Below, in pieces: positions 1-54,322 of a stretch of DNA of 64,000 nucleotides. The notes below the pieces were generated by a model. That model did no database searches, had not been told where the DNA came from, and saw only the letters and a list, made by a program, of their open reading frames with translations. The position numbers and the translations under genes were made by a program. Source of the stretch: an uncultured bacterium (GTDB lineage Bacteria > Krumholzibacteriota > Krumholzibacteriia > LZORAL124-64-63); NCBI GenBank assembly GCA_903912525.1, contig CAIWHK010000040.1, positions 1 through 64,000 on the forward strand. Reading direction: 5' to 3'. Numbering within the stretch: position 1 is the first letter of the stretch; each line of letters opens with the position of its first letter.

Positions 1-36
1 GGGCTATCCGCAGCGCCGAAGGCGCGAGGACTGCCC
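1..36. repeat. Conserved-core hairpin element, copy 1 (partial)
   Basis: The 30-nt core lies at 4-33. It begins CTATCCGCAG and ends GAGGACTG, as in the full copies at 20907-20994 and 24273-24356. The apex here is GCGCC-GAA-GGCGC, a fully paired stem with a GNA triloop. The left arm lies outside the window; only GGG/CCC pairing is visible beyond the core. It sits just downstream of the stop of the secreted endonuclease gene. Confidence 0.75.
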
Positions 37-75: not shown

Positions 76-1914
76 TTACTTGGCGAGGACGACCGATCGC
101 GTCTCCCCCACCAACCGCCCATCCACCCGCGCGCTCAGCCTGACCATGTACACCCCGGACGCCACCGCGCGCCCGGCCGCATCCCGCCCATCCCAGGTCA
201 CGAAGTGTTCCCCGGCTTCGTACGAAGCCGCCGGGAACGCCCGCACCAGCCGCCCCGCCGCATCGTACACGTTCAGCGCCGCATCCCCCGCACGGTCCAT
301 CACGAAGCGCAGGTTTGTCGAGGGGTTGAACGGGTTCGGCGCATTGGCCAGCAGCCTGGCCGGCCCGACCACCGCGCCGGCGCCCGGCGGCACCGAAGAA
401 ACGTACGTGCCGACGGTGAAGTCGGCCACGCGCGGGGCGTGGTCGCTGGCGCCGGGGATGTCGGTCGCCAGCAGGCCGTTGATCGCGAGCGTGGCCGGCA
501 GCATCGTGCGCGTCTCGACGATGAAGTGGTTGTGCACGGTCAGCGCGCTGTCCGTGTAGAAGATCCAGTCCAGCAGGCCCGGGTAGAAGCTGCTGCTGTC
601 GCTGCGCCAGGTGTAGCTGGCGCGGCCGTCGGGGTGGCGCGACGGCGGCACGGCCAGCGGGGTGCCGTCCCAGTCGGGCGGCGAGTCGGCGCCGTAGGTG
701 ACGTTGTCGACGATGTCGCCGGTCACGATCGTGTCCAGCTGCTGCCGCCAGCCCACAAGGTTCATGTCGCCGGCGATCACGATCGGCGTGTCCTGCGGCA
801 GCGTGATGACGCCGCCGGCCGTGCGCGCGTCGCGGATGAACGCCACGATGCGGTCGGCCTCGATCTGCCGGCTGGCGTCGTCCGTGCAGCAGCGCAAATG
901 CGCCGCGATGAAGAGCAGGTCCTTCGTCTGCGACGGGCCCAGGTCGAGCAGGAACGCCGACTCGCGGTACGACGTGGTGCTGCCGATCAGCCAGGTCTGC
1001 GTGATCGGGTAGCGGCTGCAGACCACGTTCGCCGCATCGACCTTCGCCGTGTACCACGTCTGGCCGGCCCCACTCGGCAGGAACACTTCGACCTGCGTCT
1101 TGACCTGCGCCGCGGTGTGGTTGAAGACCTCGCAGAACAGCAGCACGTCGGGGTTGATCGCGTCGAGGATGCGGTTCTGGGCCGGCTGCTTCGCGGCCGT
1201 GAAGATGCCGTCGCTCAAAATGTTCCAGGTCGCGACGCGGATATCCGATGCGTTCTCGCGCGCCAGCGGGATCGTCGGCGCGATGTCGCTGCCGGCCACG
1301 AACGTGTAGCTGATGCTGCCGGTGTTGGGCGCCAGGTCGCCGCTGGTCGCGTCGCGCAGGATGAAGCGCACCGTCGGGTTCGCCATCAGCACCGACGTGC
1401 CGCCCGGGATGATGTTCCGCTTCAGCGCCACCTCGAATTGGTTGTTGCTGACCGTGGGGCCCATCATCAGGCCGATGTTGTCATGGGCCACCGTGTAGCT
1501 GGTGGCCGTCGGCTTGAACGTGCCGCTGCGCGTGCCGAACTTCCAGGTCAGTTCAGCGCCGATGCCGCCGAACGCCGTGCCGGTCGCCGCGTTCATGTCG
1601 GTATCGAGGTACAGCTCCATGTTCTGTTGCTCGTCCGGCTGCACATCGCCGGTCACCTCGAAGCGGATGTAGAGGTAGTCCTGGTCGTTGGCCACCGCGA
1701 CGTTGCGGAAGTCGACGGCGCCGCCATCGCCGGCGGCGTCCATGTACAGCGGGGTCACGTCGGCCCAGTCGTCGAAGGTCCCGTCCAGCTGGATGGGGCT
1801 CAGGTCGGCGCGGGCGGCGGGAGCCAGGGCAAATAGCGGCAACAGGATGGCTGCCAGGCGGCCGGCCAGGGGCCGCCGGCCGGTGATCATGGTGCGAAAC
1901 GTCACGTCGCTCAT
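76..1914 (-). CDS. Secreted endonuclease/exonuclease/phosphatase-family protein with FlgD-like C-terminus
   Basis: A 612-residue exported protein. A hydrophobic leader (about residues 9-35) is followed by a domain starting LSPIQLDGTFDDWADV, resembling CBM9-like sugar-binding modules. The endonuclease/exonuclease/phosphatase fold follows, with RVATWNILSDG, FCEVF, AAHLRCC, AGDMN and SDHAP motifs that match the metal-binding and catalytic Asn/Asp/His positions of the family. The last 85 residues (NAPNPFNPST through WDGRDAAGRAVASGVYMVRL) form a FlgD-like Ig domain of the kind that acts as a secretion or anchoring tag. The substrate (nucleic acid, lipid or inositol phosphate) cannot be told. An alternative start lies at 1890. 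It is divergent from the GAF-domain gene. Confidence 0.85.
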   Translation of the reverse strand: MSDVTFRTMITGRRPLAGRLAAILLPLFALAPAARADLSPIQLDGTFDDWADVTPLYMDAAGDGGAVDFRNVAVANDQDYLYIRFEVTGDVQPDEQQNMELYLDTDMNAATGTAFGGIGAELTWKFGTRSGTFKPTATSYTVAHDNIGLMMGPTVSNNQFEVALKRNIIPGGTSVLMANPTVRFILRDATSGDLAPNTGSISYTFVAGSDIAPTIPLARENASDIRVATWNILSDGIFTAAKQPAQNRILDAINPDVLLFCEVFNHTAAQVKTQVEVFLPSGAGQTWYTAKVDAANVVCSRYPITQTWLIGSTTSYRESAFLLDLGPSQTKDLLFIAAHLRCCTDDASRQIEADRIVAFIRDARTAGGVITLPQDTPIVIAGDMNLVGWRQQLDTIVTGDIVDNVTYGADSPPDWDGTPLAVPPSRHPDGRASYTWRSDSSSFYPGLLDWIFYTDSALTVHNHFIVETRTMLPATLAINGLLATDIPGASDHAPRVADFTVGTYVSSVPPGAGAVVGPARLLANAPNPFNPSTNLRFVMDRAGDAALNVYDAAGRLVRAFPAASYEAGEHFVTWDGRDAAGRAVASGVYMVRLSARVDGRLVGETRSVVLAK

Positions 1915-18931: not shown

Positions 18932-20881
18932 TCAGCCCTCGATCTCGGTGTGCCACTGTTCCCAGTCGGCCATGTGTTGATGCAGTTCCGTATCCACTTC
19001 CAGGATACGGCGACCGGCCTGCGCGCGCTCGTCGCCGCTGGCGGTCGGCGAGGCCATGACCGCGAAGAGCCCGACCTTTTCGTCCTCCAGCCGCGCGATG
19101 GCCTCTTCGGCCTCGGCGATCCACTGGCGGCGGCGGGTCTGCTCGTTCTTGCTGAGGCCGCTGCCGGCGGCGCCCGTCGAGGCGGCTTCCTTCGCCCGCG
19201 TGTCGGTGGCGGCCGCCGGCCCCGAAGAGGCCGTCTGCGTCCGGCCGGCCCGGTCCTTCAGCCACTCGGCCCAGCCGCCGTCGAACAGCGTGATGGGCCC
19301 GGTCGGCAGCCCCGCCGCATCCAGGGGCGGGAACACCAGCAGCTTGTGCACGACCTTGTCCAGGAAGCGGCGGTCGTGGGAGACCACGATCAGCGTCCCG
19401 TCGAACTCGCGCAAGGCCGCTTCCAGCGACTCGCGGCTGCGCACGTCCAGGTGGTTCGTAGGCTCGTCCAGCAGCAGTGTGTTATGGCCTTCCTTGATCA
19501 GGCGCAGCAGGGCCAGCCGCCCGCGCTCGCCGCCCGACAACTGCCCCACGGGCCGATCGTACAGGTCCTCGCCGTAGCCGAACGCCGCCAGGAAGCTGCG
19601 CAATTCGCCCAGGGTGGCGCGCGGGTCCACCGAGCCGATCTCGGCGATCACCGTGTTGTGGTCCGAGACCCCCGACAGCTCCTGGTCGTAGAACCCGAGG
19701 TCGACGTTGTGCCCGATCACGATGCGCCCGTCGTCGGGCACCGTGCGCCCGGCGAGCAGCTTCAGCAGCGTCGACTTGCCGCACCCGTTGGGCCCGAGGA
19801 TGCCCAGCCGCTCGCCCCGCGACACGTGCAGGTCCAGCCCGTTGATCAGCATCCGCCCGCCGAAGCCCTTCGCCAGCCCTCGCAGTTCCAGGACGGTGCC
19901 GCCGCTTGGGCGCGCCGGCTCCATGCGGAAGCGGAACAGCCCCGGCTCGGTCGATGGGCGCTCGAGCTTCTCTTCCCGGTCCAGCAGCTTGCGGCGCCCC
20001 TGCGCCTGCTTCGTGTTCTGGCCCTCGATGTTGCGGCGGATGTAGTCCTCGGCCTGCCGCTGCTTCGCCTGCTGGCGCTGCCAGGCCGCCTCGTCCTGTT
20101 CCCAGCGCAGCTGGCTCTGCTCGTCGAAGAAGGAATAGTTGCCGCTGTAGCTGGTGACGCGGCCGCGGTCCAGGTGCAGCGTGCGCCTGGTGACGCTGTC
20201 CAGGAACCAGCGGTCGTGCGAAACGATGATGGCGGCGCCGCGGTACTGGTCCAGGAAGTTCTCCAGCCACTCGCACGACTCGAGGTCGAGGTGGTTGGTG
20301 GGCTCGTCCAGGAGCAGCAGGTCGGCGTCGCTGAGCAGGACCGAGGCCAGGGCTGCGCGACGGCGTTCGCCACCGCTGAGCCGATCCGGGCCCAACTCCC
20401 ACGTCGAGCGCGGCAAGCCGACGCCCGTCAGCGCCGCCTCGAGGCGCGACGGCATCGTGTAGCCGTGGCGGCGCTCGAACTCGTCCTGCAGTCTTCCCTG
20501 TTCCTTGATGAGCTGGTGCTGCGCCGCTTCGTCGTGCGGCGCGGCCAGCCGGGCGGCGACGTCGTGCAGTTCGCGCTCGAGCTGGCGTTCGCGCGCAAAC
20601 GCCGCGTCGGCCACCGCGTCGACCACGCGCCCGGGCCCGCCGTGGGCGCCGACTTCGAGGGTGGTTTCCTGGCGCAGGTACTTGATGCGGGTGCCACCGA
20701 GCAGCGACCGCGACCCGCCCTGCAGGGCGATCTCCCCGGCGAGGATATTAAGTAGTGTCGTCTTGCCCGCCCCGTTGGGCCCCACCAGGGCGCACTTCTG
20801 CCCGGGGTACACGGCGAAGGAGGCCCCCCGAAGGATGCGCTCCCGGCCAAAATCAAAATTCGCGTCACTCAGCGTCAGCAA
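18932..20881 (-). CDS. ABC-F family ATPase (Uup-like)
   Basis: Two ABC domains without membrane segments. Walker A motifs are GPNGAGKTT (residue ~34) and GPNGCGKST (~355), signatures are LSGGERRR and LSGGERGR, and both Walker B motifs read LLLDEPTNHLD. Between them is the P-site tRNA interaction linker region (about 240-310; YIRRNIEGQNTKQAQGRRKLLDREEKLE). The C-terminal coiled coil (QTRRRQWIAEAEEAIARLEDEK) is of the Uup/EttA type. ABC-F proteins act on the ribosome E site or on DNA-repair intermediates; Uup is the closest type by the C-terminal domain. It heads the unit with hflX. Confidence 0.92.
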   Translation of the reverse strand: MLTLSDANFDFGRERILRGASFAVYPGQKCALVGPNGAGKTTLLNILAGEIALQGGSRSLLGGTRIKYLRQETTLEVGAHGGPGRVVDAVADAAFARERQLERELHDVAARLAAPHDEAAQHQLIKEQGRLQDEFERRHGYTMPSRLEAALTGVGLPRSTWELGPDRLSGGERRRAALASVLLSDADLLLLDEPTNHLDLESCEWLENFLDQYRGAAIIVSHDRWFLDSVTRRTLHLDRGRVTSYSGNYSFFDEQSQLRWEQDEAAWQRQQAKQRQAEDYIRRNIEGQNTKQAQGRRKLLDREEKLERPSTEPGLFRFRMEPARPSGGTVLELRGLAKGFGGRMLINGLDLHVSRGERLGILGPNGCGKSTLLKLLAGRTVPDDGRIVIGHNVDLGFYDQELSGVSDHNTVIAEIGSVDPRATLGELRSFLAAFGYGEDLYDRPVGQLSGGERGRLALLRLIKEGHNTLLLDEPTNHLDVRSRESLEAALREFDGTLIVVSHDRRFLDKVVHKLLVFPPLDAAGLPTGPITLFDGGWAEWLKDRAGRTQTASSGPAAATDTRAKEAASTGAAGSGLSKNEQTRRRQWIAEAEEAIARLEDEKVGLFAVMASPTASGDERAQAGRRILEVDTELHQHMADWEQWHTEIEG

Positions 20882-20901: not shown

Positions 20902-21231
20902 GTGAATGGTGGTCCGGTACAGGCAGGTGGCCGGACTATCCGCAGGAGCGAAGCGACGAGGACTGTCCGGCCACCTGCCCGTACCGGACCACCACGCACC
21001 AAGGACAGGACCCGGAACTGGTTCGCCCCCCTCGGTTGGTTCTACCGGCCCCGCTCAATCGGTGGTGGGGTCATCACCCTTGGCGCCCTGACGTTCTGCG
21101 TGCAGGTCTTCCTGGCCGTCGACCGGAACTCGCATTCGGTCAGCGACACGCTGTACGGAGTCTTCCCGTTCGTCGTCCCCGCCGTTTTGCTAGTCAACTG
21201 GGTGGCCTTCCGGACGAGCGCGCCCCGCTAG
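20902..21231 (+). CDS. Small two-helix membrane protein; N-terminus encoded by a hairpin element
   Basis: Residues about 38-109 (NWFAPLGWFYRP, LTLGALTFCVQVFLAVDRNS, HSVSDTLYGVFPFVVPAVLLV) resemble a widespread small protein with two membrane segments and a conserved HSVSDTLYG loop. Function is unknown. The only in-frame ATG is at 20902, so residues 3-31 are encoded by the conserved-core hairpin at 20907-20994. Either the element was inserted over the original start and its translation is tolerated, or translation begins at a non-standard codon further in. Its stop overlaps the convergent flippase stop. Confidence 0.7.
   Translation: MNGGPVQAGGRTIRRSEATRTVRPPARTGPPRTKDRTRNWFAPLGWFYRPRSIGGGVITLGALTFCVQVFLAVDRNSHSVSDTLYGVFPFVVPAVLLVNWVAFRTSAPR
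20907..20994. repeat. Conserved-core hairpin element, copy A
   Basis: Arms of 29 nt at 20907-20935 and 20966-20994 are complementary with a single T/C difference (a G-U wobble in RNA). They enclose the 30-nt core 20936-20965, CTATCCGCAG...GAGGACTG. Inside the core, TCC/GGA pair and the tip GC-GAA-GC is closed by tandem G-A mismatches. The arms share no sequence with those of copy B. Confidence 0.9.
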
Positions 21232-22766
21232 CCACTCCGCTTCGGCAATACGAACTGCCGGATCTCCATCAGGTCCTCCCGCCAGAACAGCAGGAGCATC
21301 CCCACATACGTGCCGCCGCCCAGCAACGTGGACAGCACCAGGTGCGGCACCATTGCGACCTTGTTGGCCACCAGCAACCGGTCGAGTCCCAGCACCGCGG
21401 CCGACATGGCCAGGCACGAGACCATCGACGGCACGGTCGCCACCAGCAGCGATCGCCACGGCACGTTCACGCGCCGCATCACCTCGGCGCCCAGCGTGAA
21501 GACGACGAAGATCGGCATCGCGCTGCGCGCCAGCACGACACCGTTCAGCCGCCCCAGGTGCGCGCCGGCCAGGATCAGCACCAGGTTGATCGGCAGGTAG
21601 ATCAGCATCCAGCGCATGGGCAGGTGCTGCAGGCCGACGCCGTTGCAGATCGAGTGCATGGGCTGCACATAGAGCAGCAGCACGCCGTACAGGCAGAACA
21701 GCCGGACCGACGGCACGATCGGCGCCCAGGTGTCGCCGTAGGCCAGGACCACGAACTCGGGCGCCACCAGGGCGATGCCGACCAGGATCGGGAACGTCAG
21801 CAGCGAATTGTAACGGTAGAACTTGTGCAGCAGCGCGCTGACCTCGGCCGGGCTGTTCTGCACGCTCGCGAACGTGGTGAAGACGACGCCGTTGAGCACC
21901 TGAGAGATCCGGCTGACGACCTGCATCGGGATGTTGCCGGCGTACTCGTAGAAGCCCAGTTGCGTCGTGCTCAGCATCTTCGCGATGATGAAGCGGTCGG
22001 CGCTCACGTTCACGTAGGTCGTCAGGTTGACGCCCAGGAACCAGCGCCCGTATTTCACGTGCCGGCGCAGGCTTTCCCGGCAGAAGCGGAACGACGGCAG
22101 CCATGGCAAATACGCGATGTTCATGGCCGACATGACGGCGGTCGCCACCACCATGCCGGTCACAAGGCCGTACACGCCCCAATGGAACACCTTCATCAGC
22201 GTGAAGCCGACGACGAAGGTCGTCACGGCGCCGGCGAACTCGACCACCGCCGCCTCGCGGAACTTGAACGTGCGCAGCATCAGCGCCGCGTTCACGCTGC
22301 CGAGGCTGGTAAGGACGAACTGCAGCGCCAGCAGCGCGACAATCGGCAGCAGTTTCGCGTGGTCCGTGAACTGGTCCGAGATCAACGCGACCAGGCAGCA
22401 GGCCAGCGCCGCCGCCGCATCCACAGCGACGTTACCCCACCAGATCGTCGCCAGGTCGCGCCGCTCGAGGTTCTCGTGGTGGACCACCGAGGCGGCGAAG
22501 CCGAAGTTGGCGAAGATGAGGACGAACTGCGTGGAGGCCGCCGCCAGGTTGACGATACCGAAATCTGCCGGCATCAGCAGGCGCGCGAACACCATGCTGC
22601 GCGCCAACTGCAGCAGCGCGCCGGCGGCCACGCCGACGCCGGACCACATCGTGCCCCGGGCCACGCGCGTGCCGATGCCCTCGCCGCCGCGCGCGGGCGG
22701 CAGGTACAACTGGCGCGCGCGGATGCGCCGGGCCAGGGACCAGTTGCGTGTCGAACTGTCGCTCAC
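21228..22766 (-). CDS. Polysaccharide/lipopolysaccharide flippase (MATE-like Wzx type)
   Basis: A 512-residue integral membrane protein starting with ARGTMWSGVGVAAGALLQLARSMVFARLL and MPADFGIVNLAAASTQFV, the standard entry of oligosaccharide flippases of the Wzx/TuaB type, with about 12-14 predicted helices. Residues ISQVLNGVVFTTFASVQNSP and FVVLAYGDTWAPIVPSVRLFC are also family-like. It would move lipid-linked sugar units across the membrane, but no glycosyltransferase genes are adjacent. The stop codon overlaps the convergent small-protein stop, and the start overlaps the end of the upstream hydrolase gene. Confidence 0.87.
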   Translation of the reverse strand: MSDSSTRNWSLARRIRARQLYLPPARGGEGIGTRVARGTMWSGVGVAAGALLQLARSMVFARLLMPADFGIVNLAAASTQFVLIFANFGFAASVVHHENLERRDLATIWWGNVAVDAAAALACCLVALISDQFTDHAKLLPIVALLALQFVLTSLGSVNAALMLRTFKFREAAVVEFAGAVTTFVVGFTLMKVFHWGVYGLVTGMVVATAVMSAMNIAYLPWLPSFRFCRESLRRHVKYGRWFLGVNLTTYVNVSADRFIIAKMLSTTQLGFYEYAGNIPMQVVSRISQVLNGVVFTTFASVQNSPAEVSALLHKFYRYNSLLTFPILVGIALVAPEFVVLAYGDTWAPIVPSVRLFCLYGVLLLYVQPMHSICNGVGLQHLPMRWMLIYLPINLVLILAGAHLGRLNGVVLARSAMPIFVVFTLGAEVMRRVNVPWRSLLVATVPSMVSCLAMSAAVLGLDRLLVANKVAMVPHLVLSTLLGGGTYVGMLLLFWREDLMEIRQFVLPKRSG

Positions 22767-24124
22767 GGGCGGCTTCCGCCAGGGGTGGGCCGGCAGCCCT
22801 CGCGGACGAAGCCGGCAATATCATCGATGACCGCGGGCGCCACCGGCCGCGGCAACGCGTAGTCATCCGGGCTCGACTTGCCCTCCCCGCTGCGCATCAG
22901 GTGATCAAGGTCGTCGTGCAGCTTCAGGCACGCGTTTGACCTCCCCGCGAGCGCCTTCTTCCAGTTCGCGAAGTCCGCCAGGGTCACCTGGTAGTCGCGC
23001 CCGCCCTGCAGCACCAGGATGGGGATGTCCAGTGTCGCGGCGTCGGTCGGCGCATCGTGCGCCTCGAGGTCGGTGTAGTAGCCGACCGGCGCGCCCAGGA
23101 GGCGCGCCGCCGCCGAGGGCGCCCTGGTCGCGTCGCGCTGCGATGCGCGCAGGTCCGCGACGGCCAGTTTCAGTTCGTCCAGCCGGGCCGCCTCGCCGGC
23201 GTCGATCGTGTCGTCCAGTGCAACGAGGTACTGCGTCTGCTCGATCATCACCTCGGGCAGCGGCCGCGTGGCGCCGGCCATGATGATCATCCCGTCGGCC
23301 TTCGCGGCGATCGCGATGCGCGGCGCCAGCATGCCGCCCAGCGAGTGCCCCAGCACGTAGATGCGTTTCGGGTCGATCTCCGGCCGCGTGCGCAGCAGCG
23401 CCACCGCGGCGACGGCGTCGTCGATCACTTCATCCTTCACCGTCAGCGCGTTGCCCTTGTCCATCAACGATTGCGGCGCCGCGAGGCTGCGCTTGTCGTA
23501 GCGCAGCGTGGCGATGCCCTGCGCCGCCAGCCCCCAGGCGATGTCGCGGAAGGGATGGTTGCCCAGGATGTTCTCATCGCGGTCGTTCGGCCCGCTGCCG
23601 TGCACGAGCACGATCGCGGGGAACGGCCCCTTACCTTTGGGCAGCGCCAGGGAACCGGGCAGCATGCTGCCCGCGGGCCCAATGTTCACATCGATTTGTT
23701 TCGGCGTCGCCGCACTGTCGGCCTTCGCCTCGGCCGCCGTCGGCGGCTCCACGTGCGGCAGCAGGCCCAGCCCCACCACCAGCCCGTCCTTGTCGATGAC
23801 GACCTGGAAGTCGGTCGCGCCCTTCGCGCCGTTCACCGGCACGCGGTACCTTCGATAGCCCGCCACCTTGTCGTCATAGCGCGCGGCGCCCACGCCCGTG
23901 ATGTCGCCGACCTGCTCAACGACGCCACCCAGCAACTGGGTGATGGCGGCATCCGTCATTGCGGCCGCCATCTGTCCGTTGCACACGGCGCGCGCGGCCG
24001 CGCCATCCTTCGCCACGACAGACTGCGCGAATGCGTGGGCCGTCTCTTCGGGCGTGGCCGCCGCGTGCGCTTGCGCCGGCGCAAGTGCGAGCACGACCAT
24101 CGCTGCCATCAAAAATCCCCGCAT
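22763..24124 (-). CDS. Exported alpha/beta hydrolase with DUF3887-like N-terminal domain
   Basis: The signal peptide is RGFLMAAMVVLALAPAQAHA; its end is encoded by a TTGCGCCGGCGCAA palindrome. Residues about 25-130 resemble the DUF3887 substrate-entry domain (FAQSVVAKDGAAARAVCNGQM). The hydrolase follows with the oxyanion segment VLVHGSGPNDRDENI, nucleophile elbow GHSLGG (Ser near 260), acid Asp in LQGGRDYQV and His in DDLDHLM. It probably acts on an ester or peptide substrate outside the cytoplasm. The start ATG at 24124 follows GGAGGGTGAG. It overlaps the flippase start by 4 bp (coupled). Confidence 0.88.
   Translation of the reverse strand: MRGFLMAAMVVLALAPAQAHAAATPEETAHAFAQSVVAKDGAAARAVCNGQMAAAMTDAAITQLLGGVVEQVGDITGVGAARYDDKVAGYRRYRVPVNGAKGATDFQVVIDKDGLVVGLGLLPHVEPPTAAEAKADSAATPKQIDVNIGPAGSMLPGSLALPKGKGPFPAIVLVHGSGPNDRDENILGNHPFRDIAWGLAAQGIATLRYDKRSLAAPQSLMDKGNALTVKDEVIDDAVAAVALLRTRPEIDPKRIYVLGHSLGGMLAPRIAIAAKADGMIIMAGATRPLPEVMIEQTQYLVALDDTIDAGEAARLDELKLAVADLRASQRDATRAPSAAARLLGAPVGYYTDLEAHDAPTDAATLDIPILVLQGGRDYQVTLADFANWKKALAGRSNACLKLHDDLDHLMRSGEGKSSPDDYALPRPVAPAVIDDIAGFVREGCRPTPGGSRP
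24070..24085. repeat. TTGCGCCGGCGCAA palindrome in signal-peptide codons
   Basis: CTTGCGCCGGCGCAAG is a perfect palindrome encoding LAPAQ at the end of the signal peptide of the alpha/beta hydrolase. An Ala-rich signal peptide is a natural place for such codons, so recruitment by chance is possible. Confidence 0.6.
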
Positions 24125-24272
24125 CTCACCCTCCGGGTCGGCGTTTCCCGCCAACTTTACTACCGCGACACCCGCCGCACAACCGCTGCACGCCCTGCGC
24201 CGCCACCATTTTGGCCCCCACCCCCAATTTGGCCCACTTGATTCTTTGGTTCCCCCGCCTACATGCGCGGCA

Positions 24273-24356
24273 TGGTTGATCCATCAATGCTTCCGGCGGC
24301 TATCCGCAGGAGCGCAGCGACGAGGACTGCCGCCGGAAGCATTGATGGATCAACCA
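24273..24356. repeat. Conserved-core hairpin element, copy B
   Basis: Arms of 27 nt at 24273-24299 and 24330-24356 are perfectly complementary. The 30-nt core at 24300-24329 differs from copy A at one base, turning the apical triloop from GAA to GCA (both fit GNA). It is intergenic, between the hydrolase start and the AraC-type gene. The outer arm (TGGTTGATCCATCAA) resembles the arm of the hairpin at 54245-54322. Confidence 0.92.
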
Positions 24357-24386
24357 CGCGCCATGTAACAGGGGCGAAACAAAGAA

Positions 24387-24417
24387 AAAGGCCCCCCAGA
24401 CTCAGTGGGAGGCCTTT
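24387..24417 (-). terminator. Rho-independent terminator of the AraC-type gene
   Basis: Read on the minus strand, AAAGGCCTCCCACTGAGTCT is followed by GGGGGGCC and a T-rich TTTTTCTTTG tract. It lies about 25 nt after the stop codon of the AraC-type gene. Confidence 0.8.
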
Positions 24418-24439
24418 ATTCTCTCTGCTCGGGCCCGAT

Positions 24440-25342
24440 CTAAGCCATCGCGTGCGGACTCTTCCTGAACTTCAGGGGAGACATCCCACAGCGATCCTTG
24501 AACGTCCGCGAGAAGTGAGCCAGGCTGTGGAAGCCACAGCGCTTGCTGATCGCATCGACCGAGAGGTCGAAACGGCGCAGCAGGCTCTTCGCGTTCTCGA
24601 CGCGCACCTGGATCAGGTAGTCGCTGAAGCTCATCCCCACTTCCTGCCGGAACAGGTTCGAGAAGTAACCCGGCGACAGGTTGACCGTTTCGGCCATCTT
24701 GTCGCGGTTGATGTTCTCGTGGAAATGCGCCAGCACGAAGCGGCACGCGTACTCGGCCCGGTAATCCTGCAGCGTGTGCGACGCATGGATCGTCGCGCCC
24801 TGCTCGTCAACAAGAGTGATCTCGGGCAGGTTCTCGCTCCACAGATCCTCGTCGCCGGGGATCGAGTGCGGTCCTGCATCCAGCATCGCGCCGCTGGGCT
24901 TTTCACCCATCGGATGCGCGCTGCCGGGCTGTGCGGCGTTCGCCGCGTTGAGGAATTCTGTAACCATGCGCGCGGCCTTGACGACATTCGTCTTTCGGGC
25001 CACGAGCATCGGCGCACCGGCCATCGTAGTCGGACCCACCAGACCAGCCCGCAGCGCATCGGGAGAGTCGGCAGCATAGACGAAGACCAGCGAAGCCGCG
25101 GCGATCGCTTCGGTCGACTCGCCATCCTGCATGCGGTGCATGAGGATCTGCGATCCGAAGAGAGCCAGGCACAGCTCCGTAGTGTTGGTTTCAGCCCGCG
25201 GACAATAGAACAGAATCCGTTGGCTTTCCTCTCGGCCCTGGATCAATTGCTTCGCATACGTCGGAAACTCGATGACGAAACAGGTCCACGGTTCTTTGAG
25301 AGGCTCGTAACGTTCTTCCACAATAAACCCCCAAGCGAGCAC
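24440..25342 (-). CDS. AraC-family transcriptional regulator
   Basis: The C-terminal 100 residues carry the double HTH of the AraC family: KMAETVNLSPGYFSNLFRQEVGMSFSDYL and VDAISKRCGFHSLAHFSRTFKDRCGMSPLKFR. The N-terminal 190 residues include ILFYCPRAETNTTELCLALF and a MVTEFLNA helix; they resemble the PocR-like sensory domain found before some AraC regulators, but a Cys ligand set is not clear. The ligand and targets are unknown. The start chosen is GTG at 25342 after AAGGA. A promoter candidate lies upstream at 25400-25429. Its neighbours give no hint of a regulon. Confidence 0.87.
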   Translation of the reverse strand: MLAWGFIVEERYEPLKEPWTCFVIEFPTYAKQLIQGREESQRILFYCPRAETNTTELCLALFGSQILMHRMQDGESTEAIAAASLVFVYAADSPDALRAGLVGPTTMAGAPMLVARKTNVVKAARMVTEFLNAANAAQPGSAHPMGEKPSGAMLDAGPHSIPGDEDLWSENLPEITLVDEQGATIHASHTLQDYRAEYACRFVLAHFHENINRDKMAETVNLSPGYFSNLFRQEVGMSFSDYLIQVRVENAKSLLRRFDLSVDAISKRCGFHSLAHFSRTFKDRCGMSPLKFRKSPHAMA

Positions 25343-53259: not shown

Positions 53260-54218
53260 GCGCGCCGCGCGATCCCGCACTTGCGCCGGCGCAAGTTTCC
53301 CGCGCCCAGGCTGCTCTCATCGCCCACCTCTCGGGCGACGCACTCGGTTCGCTTGTAGAATTCGTGCCCGTCGCGGAGATCCATCGCGTCTACCCCGACG
53401 GCGTCCGCGCCATGGCCGACGGCGGCACCTTCAAGACCCTGGCTGGCCAACCCACCGACGACGGCGAGATGACCCTCGCCCTGGCCCGTTCGCTGGTCGA
53501 GCGCGGCGCCTACGACGCGGCCCACGCCAAGGCCGCCTACCTGCGCTGGATCAACTCAAACCCGTTCGACCGCGGCACCACCATCGCCAACGCGCTGGCC
53601 GGCGTGCCGACGCCAAACAGTCAGGCCAACGGCGCGTTGATGCGCGTGGCGCCCATCGGCATCTTCGGCGCCCGCCGCGCCACCCTGGATGAGGTCGCCA
53701 CCTGGGCCGAGCGCGACGCCGCGATCACCCACCCGCACCTGGTCTGCCGGCAGGCGAACGCGCTCTACGCGATGGCCATCGCGCATGCGATCAAAACGGG
53801 CCCAACGCCGGCCGAGCTCCACGATTTCATCAGCGCGCAGGCGGCCGCGCGCAGCGTCGACCCGTCTTTGACGGAAGTCATCGCGCTTTCAACCACCCAG
53901 CCGCCGGCCACTTACACCGAGCAGATCGGCTGGGTGCTCATCGCGTTTCACAATGTGCTGTGGCAACTGCTTCATGCGCCGTCGCTGGAGGAGGGGATCG
54001 TCGGCACGATCATGCGCGGCGGCGATACCGACACGAATGCGGCGATTGCGGGGGCTTTGCTGGGCTCTGTGTACGGTATGCACGCGGTGCCGGAACGCTG
54101 GACGACCACGCTGGCGAACTGCCGCGCGGATCAGGGCGAGCCGCGGTCGTCGCGGCGCCGTCCGCCGGAGTACTGGCCGGTCGATGCGCTGGAGTTGGCG
54201 GCGAAGCTGCTTGGCTGA
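53256..54218 (+). CDS. ADP-ribosylglycohydrolase-family protein
   Basis: The DraG/ARH family removes ADP-ribose from proteins, nucleic acids or small molecules. The 320-residue protein has the entry AALIAHLSGDALGSLVEF, metal site TDDGEMTLALA, NGALMRVAPIGIF, and the second metal site GGDTDTNAAIAGALLGSVYG. The TTG start at 53256 overlaps the previous stop (TTGA). A palindrome encodes LAPAQV at residues 9-14, directly before the conserved domain. No ADP-ribosyltransferase partner is recognisable nearby; the preceding 116-residue protein is the only coupled gene. Confidence 0.88.
   Translation: MSAPRDPALAPAQVSRAQAALIAHLSGDALGSLVEFVPVAEIHRVYPDGVRAMADGGTFKTLAGQPTDDGEMTLALARSLVERGAYDAAHAKAAYLRWINSNPFDRGTTIANALAGVPTPNSQANGALMRVAPIGIFGARRATLDEVATWAERDAAITHPHLVCRQANALYAMAIAHAIKTGPTPAELHDFISAQAAARSVDPSLTEVIALSTTQPPATYTEQIGWVLIAFHNVLWQLLHAPSLEEGIVGTIMRGGDTDTNAAIAGALLGSVYGMHAVPERWTTTLANCRADQGEPRSSRRRPPEYWPVDALELAAKLLG
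53279..53296. repeat. ACTTGCGCCGGCGCAAGT palindrome at the ADP-ribosylglycohydrolase N-terminus
   Basis: A perfect 18-bp palindrome starting 23 nt into the gene and read as ALAPAQV. Confidence 0.9.
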
Positions 54219-54244: not shown

Positions 54245-54322
54245 GATGGTTGATCTATCAACCAATTTTCGAAGCCGAAAGGCTCCTTTGGGCGGTGAGA
54301 AATAGTTGATAGATCAACCATC
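54245..54322. repeat. Long hairpin element with GAAA-tipped core
   Basis: Perfect 18-nt arms at 54245-54262 (GATGGTTGATCTATCAAC) and 54305-54322 enclose a 42-nt core. The core contains AGCC-GAAA-GGCT at 54273-54284 and TTTC/GAAA pairing outside it. The core differs from the CTATCCGCAG class, but the arm resembles the outer arm of copy B (TGGTTGATCCATCAA). Confidence 0.9.

Follow-up and report, generated by a model that had tools for sequence, protein, structure and literature searches.

Hairpin copies and neighbouring genes in the window

The window, the whole 64,000-nucleotide stretch of DNA analysed here, is the start of contig C40 of its genome (G000; 4.29 Mb in 72 contigs). It carries two complete copies and one partial copy of a hairpin element, which lie among the following features:

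1-36, minus strand: third copy, partial, consisting of the core (4-33) and the first 3 bp of each arm
76-1914, minus strand: gene with FlgD_ig and Exo_endo_phos domains
18932-20881, minus strand: ABC ATPase gene, flanking copy A
20907-20994, minus strand: complete copy A, arms 20907-20935 and 20966-20994, core 20936-20965
21228-22766, minus strand: polysaccharide-biosynthesis gene, flanking copy A
22763-24151, minus strand: alpha/beta-hydrolase gene, flanking copy B
24273-24356, minus strand: complete copy B, arms 24273-24299 and 24330-24356, core 24300-24329
24385-24421, minus strand: ordinary intrinsic terminator of the AraC-type gene
24440-25342, minus strand: AraC-type regulator gene, flanking copy B

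When recounted, the arms pair at 28 of 29 positions in copy A, which is on the minus strand when read in the family orientation (CAGTCCTC..CTGCGGATAG), and at 27 of 27 positions in copy B; the two copies score 92 and 78 bits, respectively, with covariance model R1. The copy at 1-36 is incomplete because the window begins where the contig begins. Its tip is a paired GCGCC-GAA-GGCGC, and the tips of the full copies are GC-GAA-GC and GC-GCA-GC, both closed by tandem G.A mismatches. The first-pass annotation of this DNA had described the two complete copies with their paired arms, the partial copy and both kinds of tip (the latter as GC-GNA-GC in the full copies), and in all of this it was accurate.

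The truncated copy sits 42 nt past the stop of the gene with FlgD_ig and Exo_endo_phos domains, a placement that is typical of the element. Copies A and B are placed atypically: the nearest stop upstream is 262 nt away for A and 110 nt for B, and most copies abut one. Between copy B and the AraC-type gene there is a GC hairpin that is followed, in gene sense, by a T run; this is an ordinary intrinsic terminator, and its presence beside copy B shows that normal terminators coexist with the element.

A scan of the window for long hairpins returned three, two of which are copies A and B, compared with none in each of three Markov-shuffled controls. The third hairpin (54245-54322) lies 27 nt after a plus-strand gene (53364-54218) and has 18 bp arms that start with GATGGTTGATC, as copy B does, and a 42-nt inner part containing AAGCCGAAAGGCTCC. 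This inner part is unrelated to the element and, with up to 3 mismatches allowed, occurs once among four congeneric genomes.

A conserved internal loop joins two variable helices

Read in gene sense, the element runs from a 5′ arm through xxGTCCTC, a tip hairpin and CTGCGGAxxx to the 3′ arm. The conserved unit is an asymmetric internal loop (GUCCUC / CUGCGGA in gene sense) that joins two freely varying helices, and the bases that are invariant family-wide are GTCC.C and CTG.GGA. An invariant core at the apex of the hairpin had been proposed at first pass; tip length, mostly 11 or 13 nt, ranges from 5 to 45 nt among relatives, so the invariant unit is the internal loop and not the apex. The long stem comprises ~25-40 bp of locus-specific sequence between the stop codon and the internal loop. 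Column information is low past the first 6 bp of the arms, leaving the outer arms as the least conserved part of the element, and the core variants are uniform within genus g1 (56 of 59 have CA..TAG) and different between genera.

Given this fold, 92.9% of pairs are standard in 39 g1 sequences, compared with 55.5% when these are shuffled and 35-43% in slid versions, and the same sequences hold 683 double-change cells versus 216 in controls. A family-wide alignment of 47 sequences has 96.2% standard pairs versus 54.7% in its control. The paired arms seen in the window recur throughout: Watson-Crick pairs make up ~95% of whole arms across 123 copies and 98% of the inner 22 bp in well-paired copies. 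Two loci, L087 (G001:C349:8477) and L062 (G002:C83:316), have an intact core between arms that do not match each other, and may be chimeras produced by assembly or recombination. L087 combines single arms of two loci that lie apart in G000, and may have arisen as an assembly chimera or through recombination within the core.

The element is dispersed within a single family of the phylum

The exact core CTATCCGCAG-N-GAGGACTG occurs 26 times in G000, where the reversed pattern occurs 0 times, and 16, 15 and 17 times in three congeners; one exact-core match in G003 (L045) was discarded as a chance core inside a coding gene. These 26 cores bear out the original suggestion that the copies belong to a dispersed family, in which the core is invariant and the arms are paired but otherwise unconstrained, with further members in the genome. 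Eighteen of these cores have a contig end no more than ~60 nt away. Since palindromes break assembly, copies are partly split or undercounted, and the element explains assembly breaks in G000.

Covariance model R1 recovered full-length copies in other genera of the family, with alignments that show a common core. Across 80 genomes of the phylum, model R2 found copies in 30 of the 38 that belong to the same family (f1) and in none of the 42 from other families, and the element is thus restricted to one family within the phylum. No Rfam family matched in the window at the gathering threshold, and locus L063 gave sub-threshold matches only, mostly to miRNA-precursor hairpins. Scans for the exact core found no paired copies outside the genus in viral contigs, nor among the matches listed for general genomes, and blastn returned no plasmid relatives of copy A and no phage relatives of copy B.

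Dispersal of this kind recalls REP elements and RAYT-associated palindromes (PMC2817692, PMC3733652, PMC12306157). In REPs it is the palindrome itself that is conserved as a consensus, a GTAG or CGTC tag often marks one of its ends, and there is an associated Y1 transposase. The element resembles REPs as a dispersed extragenic palindrome in tens of copies (26 in G000, 15-17 in congeners), often near stops and sometimes in inverted pairs. Unlike REPs, it is conserved only in the internal loop, with free arms and tip (outer-arm identity is 0.32 over 670 pairs of paralogues) and no GTAG/CGTC end tag, and a Y1 transposase is nearly always missing. RAYT (Y1_Tnp, PF01797) has matches in 4 of the 80 genomes, three of them carriers, and none in G000, G001 or G003; an IS200-like Y1 transposase is absent from 27 of the 30 carrier genomes. 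Identity with REP/RAYT systems was rejected because there is no conserved palindrome and Y1 is missing from these 27 carriers.

Copies follow stop codons in a fixed orientation

Genes were placed with a codon-usage gene caller trained on GC3-ordered ORFs. Of the 116 copies that could be classified relative to these genes, 95 follow a stop codon in the same, sense orientation, with the core 12-57 nt (median 37) downstream of it; the 116 divide into 79 with a sense-only stop, 16 at convergent gene ends, 8 antisense-only and 13 with neither. The gap between the stop and the base of the stem has a median of 0, a mean of 0.2 and an sd of 8.2 nt (33 copies), and at L051, L063, L086 and infB the stem includes the stop codon itself. 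In the 28 cases with a same-strand gene downstream, none of these genes begins closer than 88 nt, placing the element between operons and not within them. Convergent genes sometimes have one copy each, forming inverted pairs 200-280 bp apart. The genes concerned are diverse and often housekeeping, and many copies are orthologous, standing at the same genes across species; a copy stands at the end of infB, for example, in each of the four g1 species and also in G009 and G012.

Intrinsic terminators offer one comparison for such placement. Like them, the element is a stable, GC-rich hairpin just after a gene, which here lies outside operons, and in a relative hairpins of the terminator kind take its place. 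Unlike them, it has no T run (T makes up 16% of the 12 nt following the stem, and 0 of 37 copies have more than 4 T in any 8), and it has a much longer stem, an invariant internal loop and, probably, a fold on the opposite strand. For the missing T run, its identification as an intrinsic terminator was rejected.

A second comparison is with attC sites, which stand after a stop codon, fold on the bottom strand, and have unpaired bases and a variable tip; the element is likewise a hairpin, probably of the bottom strand, directly after the stop, with unpaired stem bases and a tip of variable length. Two reports describe attC as a folded hairpin (PMC5371416, PMC11641012). The integron integrase IntI (TIGR02249 over cut-off) is found in most genomes of the family and in several other families of the phylum, and its loci L416, L417, L418, L419 and L420 (G003, G001, G028, G009, G000) were examined. 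The likeness in anatomy and the frequency of IntI in the family would suit an attC-like site of the family's integrase, folded from the bottom strand downstream of gene cassettes. Conservation in attC, however, lies in the outer boxes, whereas the element is conserved internally, and its long variable outer arms lack the R boxes RYYYAAC / GTTRRRY. No attC-like site, by a simple R-box pattern, and no paired element was found around IntI in the five genomes; IntI is also encoded in genera and families that lack the element, and the genes adjacent to the element are often housekeeping and vertically inherited. With the outer boxes missing, no array at IntI and no link to it, identity with attC was rejected, and we regard an attC-like site as highly improbable.

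Residual pairs point to a fold on the strand opposite the mRNA

A first count over g1 arms showed no bias in residual pairs (19 G.T versus 21 A.C in sense). In the well-paired inner arms of a larger set, A.C in sense, which is G.U on the opposite strand, is found 24 times versus 6 for G.U in sense, or 22 versus 6 once orthologous events are counted as one (p=0.004); for whole arms the counts are 68 versus 49. Distinct tips favour opposite-strand G.U by 12 to 1 (p=0.003), a count that the fixed C of CTGCGGA may bias. Most copies have the loop GAA, AAA or GCA on the opposite strand, and DNA folding energy is better on that strand in 103 of 120 copies. Deamination of coding-strand cytosines linked to transcription would bias the pairs the other way. 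The folding strand is therefore probably the one opposite the upstream mRNA, as judged from a strand asymmetry that comprises a few dozen mismatches in all. Some selection for folding of a single strand, which the first-pass annotation had seen in the compensatory pairing, is likely on the grounds of these biased residual pairs and GNA-type loops; arm covariation alone is insufficient for it.

The direction of this bias bears on the possibility of an mRNA 3′-UTR element that acts in the sense transcript, as a block to 3′ exonucleases or as a hairpin disturbing the terminating ribosome, an action of the kind reported for E. coli REPs that lie no more than 15 nt from a stop codon. The base of the stem at the stop codon and the sense orientation bias would fit such a role, as would the infB 3′ ends with the element, which are predicted to fold at -66 to -79 kcal/mol as sense RNA. 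There is also an analogy with E. coli REPs near stop codons, as those fewer than 16 nt from the stop codon down-regulate translation (recounted in PMC12306157). The wobble-type pairs and the loop sequences nevertheless point to the opposite strand, and a sense 3′-UTR element seems improbable to us.

Arm changes carry a template-switching signature

Orthologous 5′ arms differ by 0.30 per site, compared with 0.28 at four-fold sites, and the differences between orthologous arms consist of 139 complementary double versus 35 single changes, with zero single differences in groups 1, 2, 3, 6 and 9. The orthologue of copy B in G001 (L089:2307) has arms of different sequence that are still paired; the difference is 0.58 ungapped, partly via a one-base indel mirrored in both arms, at a four-fold divergence of 0.083. 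G-U pairs are few in orthologous arms, and the core is inverted between the orthologues L041/L079 and L037/L057.

The described footprint of DNA template switching comprises homogenisation of the arms, inversion of the spacer and a lack of G-U intermediates (PMC8794818, PMC8604942). As read from the aligned sequences, the arm changes carry this signature: like hairpins and inverted repeats maintained by template switching, the element has arms that change together, in paired double changes free of intermediates, with arm homogenisation and inversion of the loop or spacer. Because template switching can account for the paired arms, arm pairing is weak evidence of function. Template switching is a mutational process rather than a function, and leaves the invariant core and the position unexplained; the internal loop, position and orientation are stronger evidence of function than arm pairing. 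The step from arm covariation by itself to selection on the fold, taken at first pass, is not supported, since orthologous arms change nearly neutrally, mostly by double changes, and the core flips.

Gain and replacement of the element at gene ends

At gene ends of G003 that lack the element and whose orthologues carry it, short hairpins are found instead, most of them terminator-like; among these replacements, L306 and L307 have a T run and L303 has only a weak pyrimidine tract. Across genera, the element alternates at infB with other strong hairpins. These other post-infB hairpins are likewise perfectly paired, indicating that near-perfect arms are not special to the element's family. The infB ends of genera g8 and g9 share one such perfect hairpin, GCCGGCC..GGGAC-CTCCT-GTCCC..GGCCGGC (L325, L326, L328-L331, in G028, G020, G011, G010, G033 and G027), the stems of which covary too, without G-U pairs. 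It is possibly a second lineage-specific terminator type.

At locus L081 of G001, a whole hairpin follows directly after the stop, and G000, G002 and G003 have the same flank with no hairpin, so that L081 looks like the insertion of a whole hairpin into an empty site. A search of four genomes that allowed up to 3 mismatches over 21 nt returned no donor for its arm. An origin of arms as inverted copies of the local target was rejected as the sole origin, neither L081 arm being present in the empty site. Copying from a donor element was also rejected, there being no L081 donor in the four genomes and no similar paralogues; within a genome, no arms are shared between paralogues except by the split-contig halves of one element and by one pair with similar flanks.

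The L081 site raises the possibility of a mobile, REP- or MITE-like hairpin that inserts beside stops, with folded single-stranded DNA read by a putative transposase, in which case the location at gene ends would reflect toleration or targeting rather than a function. The matching flanks at L081 favour mobility, and so do the patchy presence of the element in the family and at infB, the uniform core variant within g1 and the resemblance of the inverted pairs to BIMEs. However, most carriers have no IS200-like Y1 transposase, many copies have orthologues at the same genes in other species, and the paralogues, apart from the exceptions given above, lack common arms, so that recent copying of whole elements is not visible. 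We consider a mobile hairpin a serious rival, though a somewhat unlikely one.

A candidate boundary element at gene ends

The copies form a real, lineage-restricted hairpin family that is best read, tentatively and with a probability of roughly 0.45, as a boundary element of gene ends whose internal loop is recognised. This reading draws on the placement after stops and between operons, the other hairpins in its place in G003 and, at infB, across genera, the uniform core variant within g1, the pair counts versus controls, the strand asymmetry, the template-switching signature and the confinement to one family. Its candidate function, as predicted from sequence, would be that of a lineage-specific cis-acting hairpin marking the 3′ boundary of genes or transcription units. 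The long stem starts at the stop codon (median) and leads to the invariant internal loop, with the variable stem-loop as a cap, and the loop would be the recognition site of a putative dedicated host protein, such that the element would end or insulate transcription at the gene end. The fold would form on the strand opposite the upstream mRNA, either in single-stranded DNA or in an RNA whose transcription enters the gene from its downstream side. No particular sequence would be needed in the arms, whose complementarity would be kept mainly by template switching during replication, which may also occasionally invert the core.

Against this boundary reading stand the stem with no T run following it, the presence of the element at only ~1% of genes, and the position of copies A and B off stop codons, together with the small number of mismatches behind the strand asymmetry and the perfect pairing of other hairpins after infB. 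The apparent insertion of the whole hairpin at L081, with arms found nowhere else in four genomes, argues against a purely resident element. A fuller version of the boundary reading, in which a putative protein would read the internal loop opposite the mRNA at stops and set transcription boundaries that replace intrinsic terminators, with template switching repairing the arms, would amount to an undescribed system of one family; this fuller version we think unlikely.

The element offers a natural case in which stems of 25-40 bp diverge nearly neutrally while remaining almost perfectly paired. It separates features maintained by template switching from those maintained by selection, namely the internal loop, the orientation and the place, and so bears on how covariation is read as evidence for RNA structure. 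For the family that carries it, the element looks like an undescribed kind of gene-end signal of predicted function and, if it is such a signal, it would be a new class, marked by an internal loop of specific sequence and by the lack of a T run.
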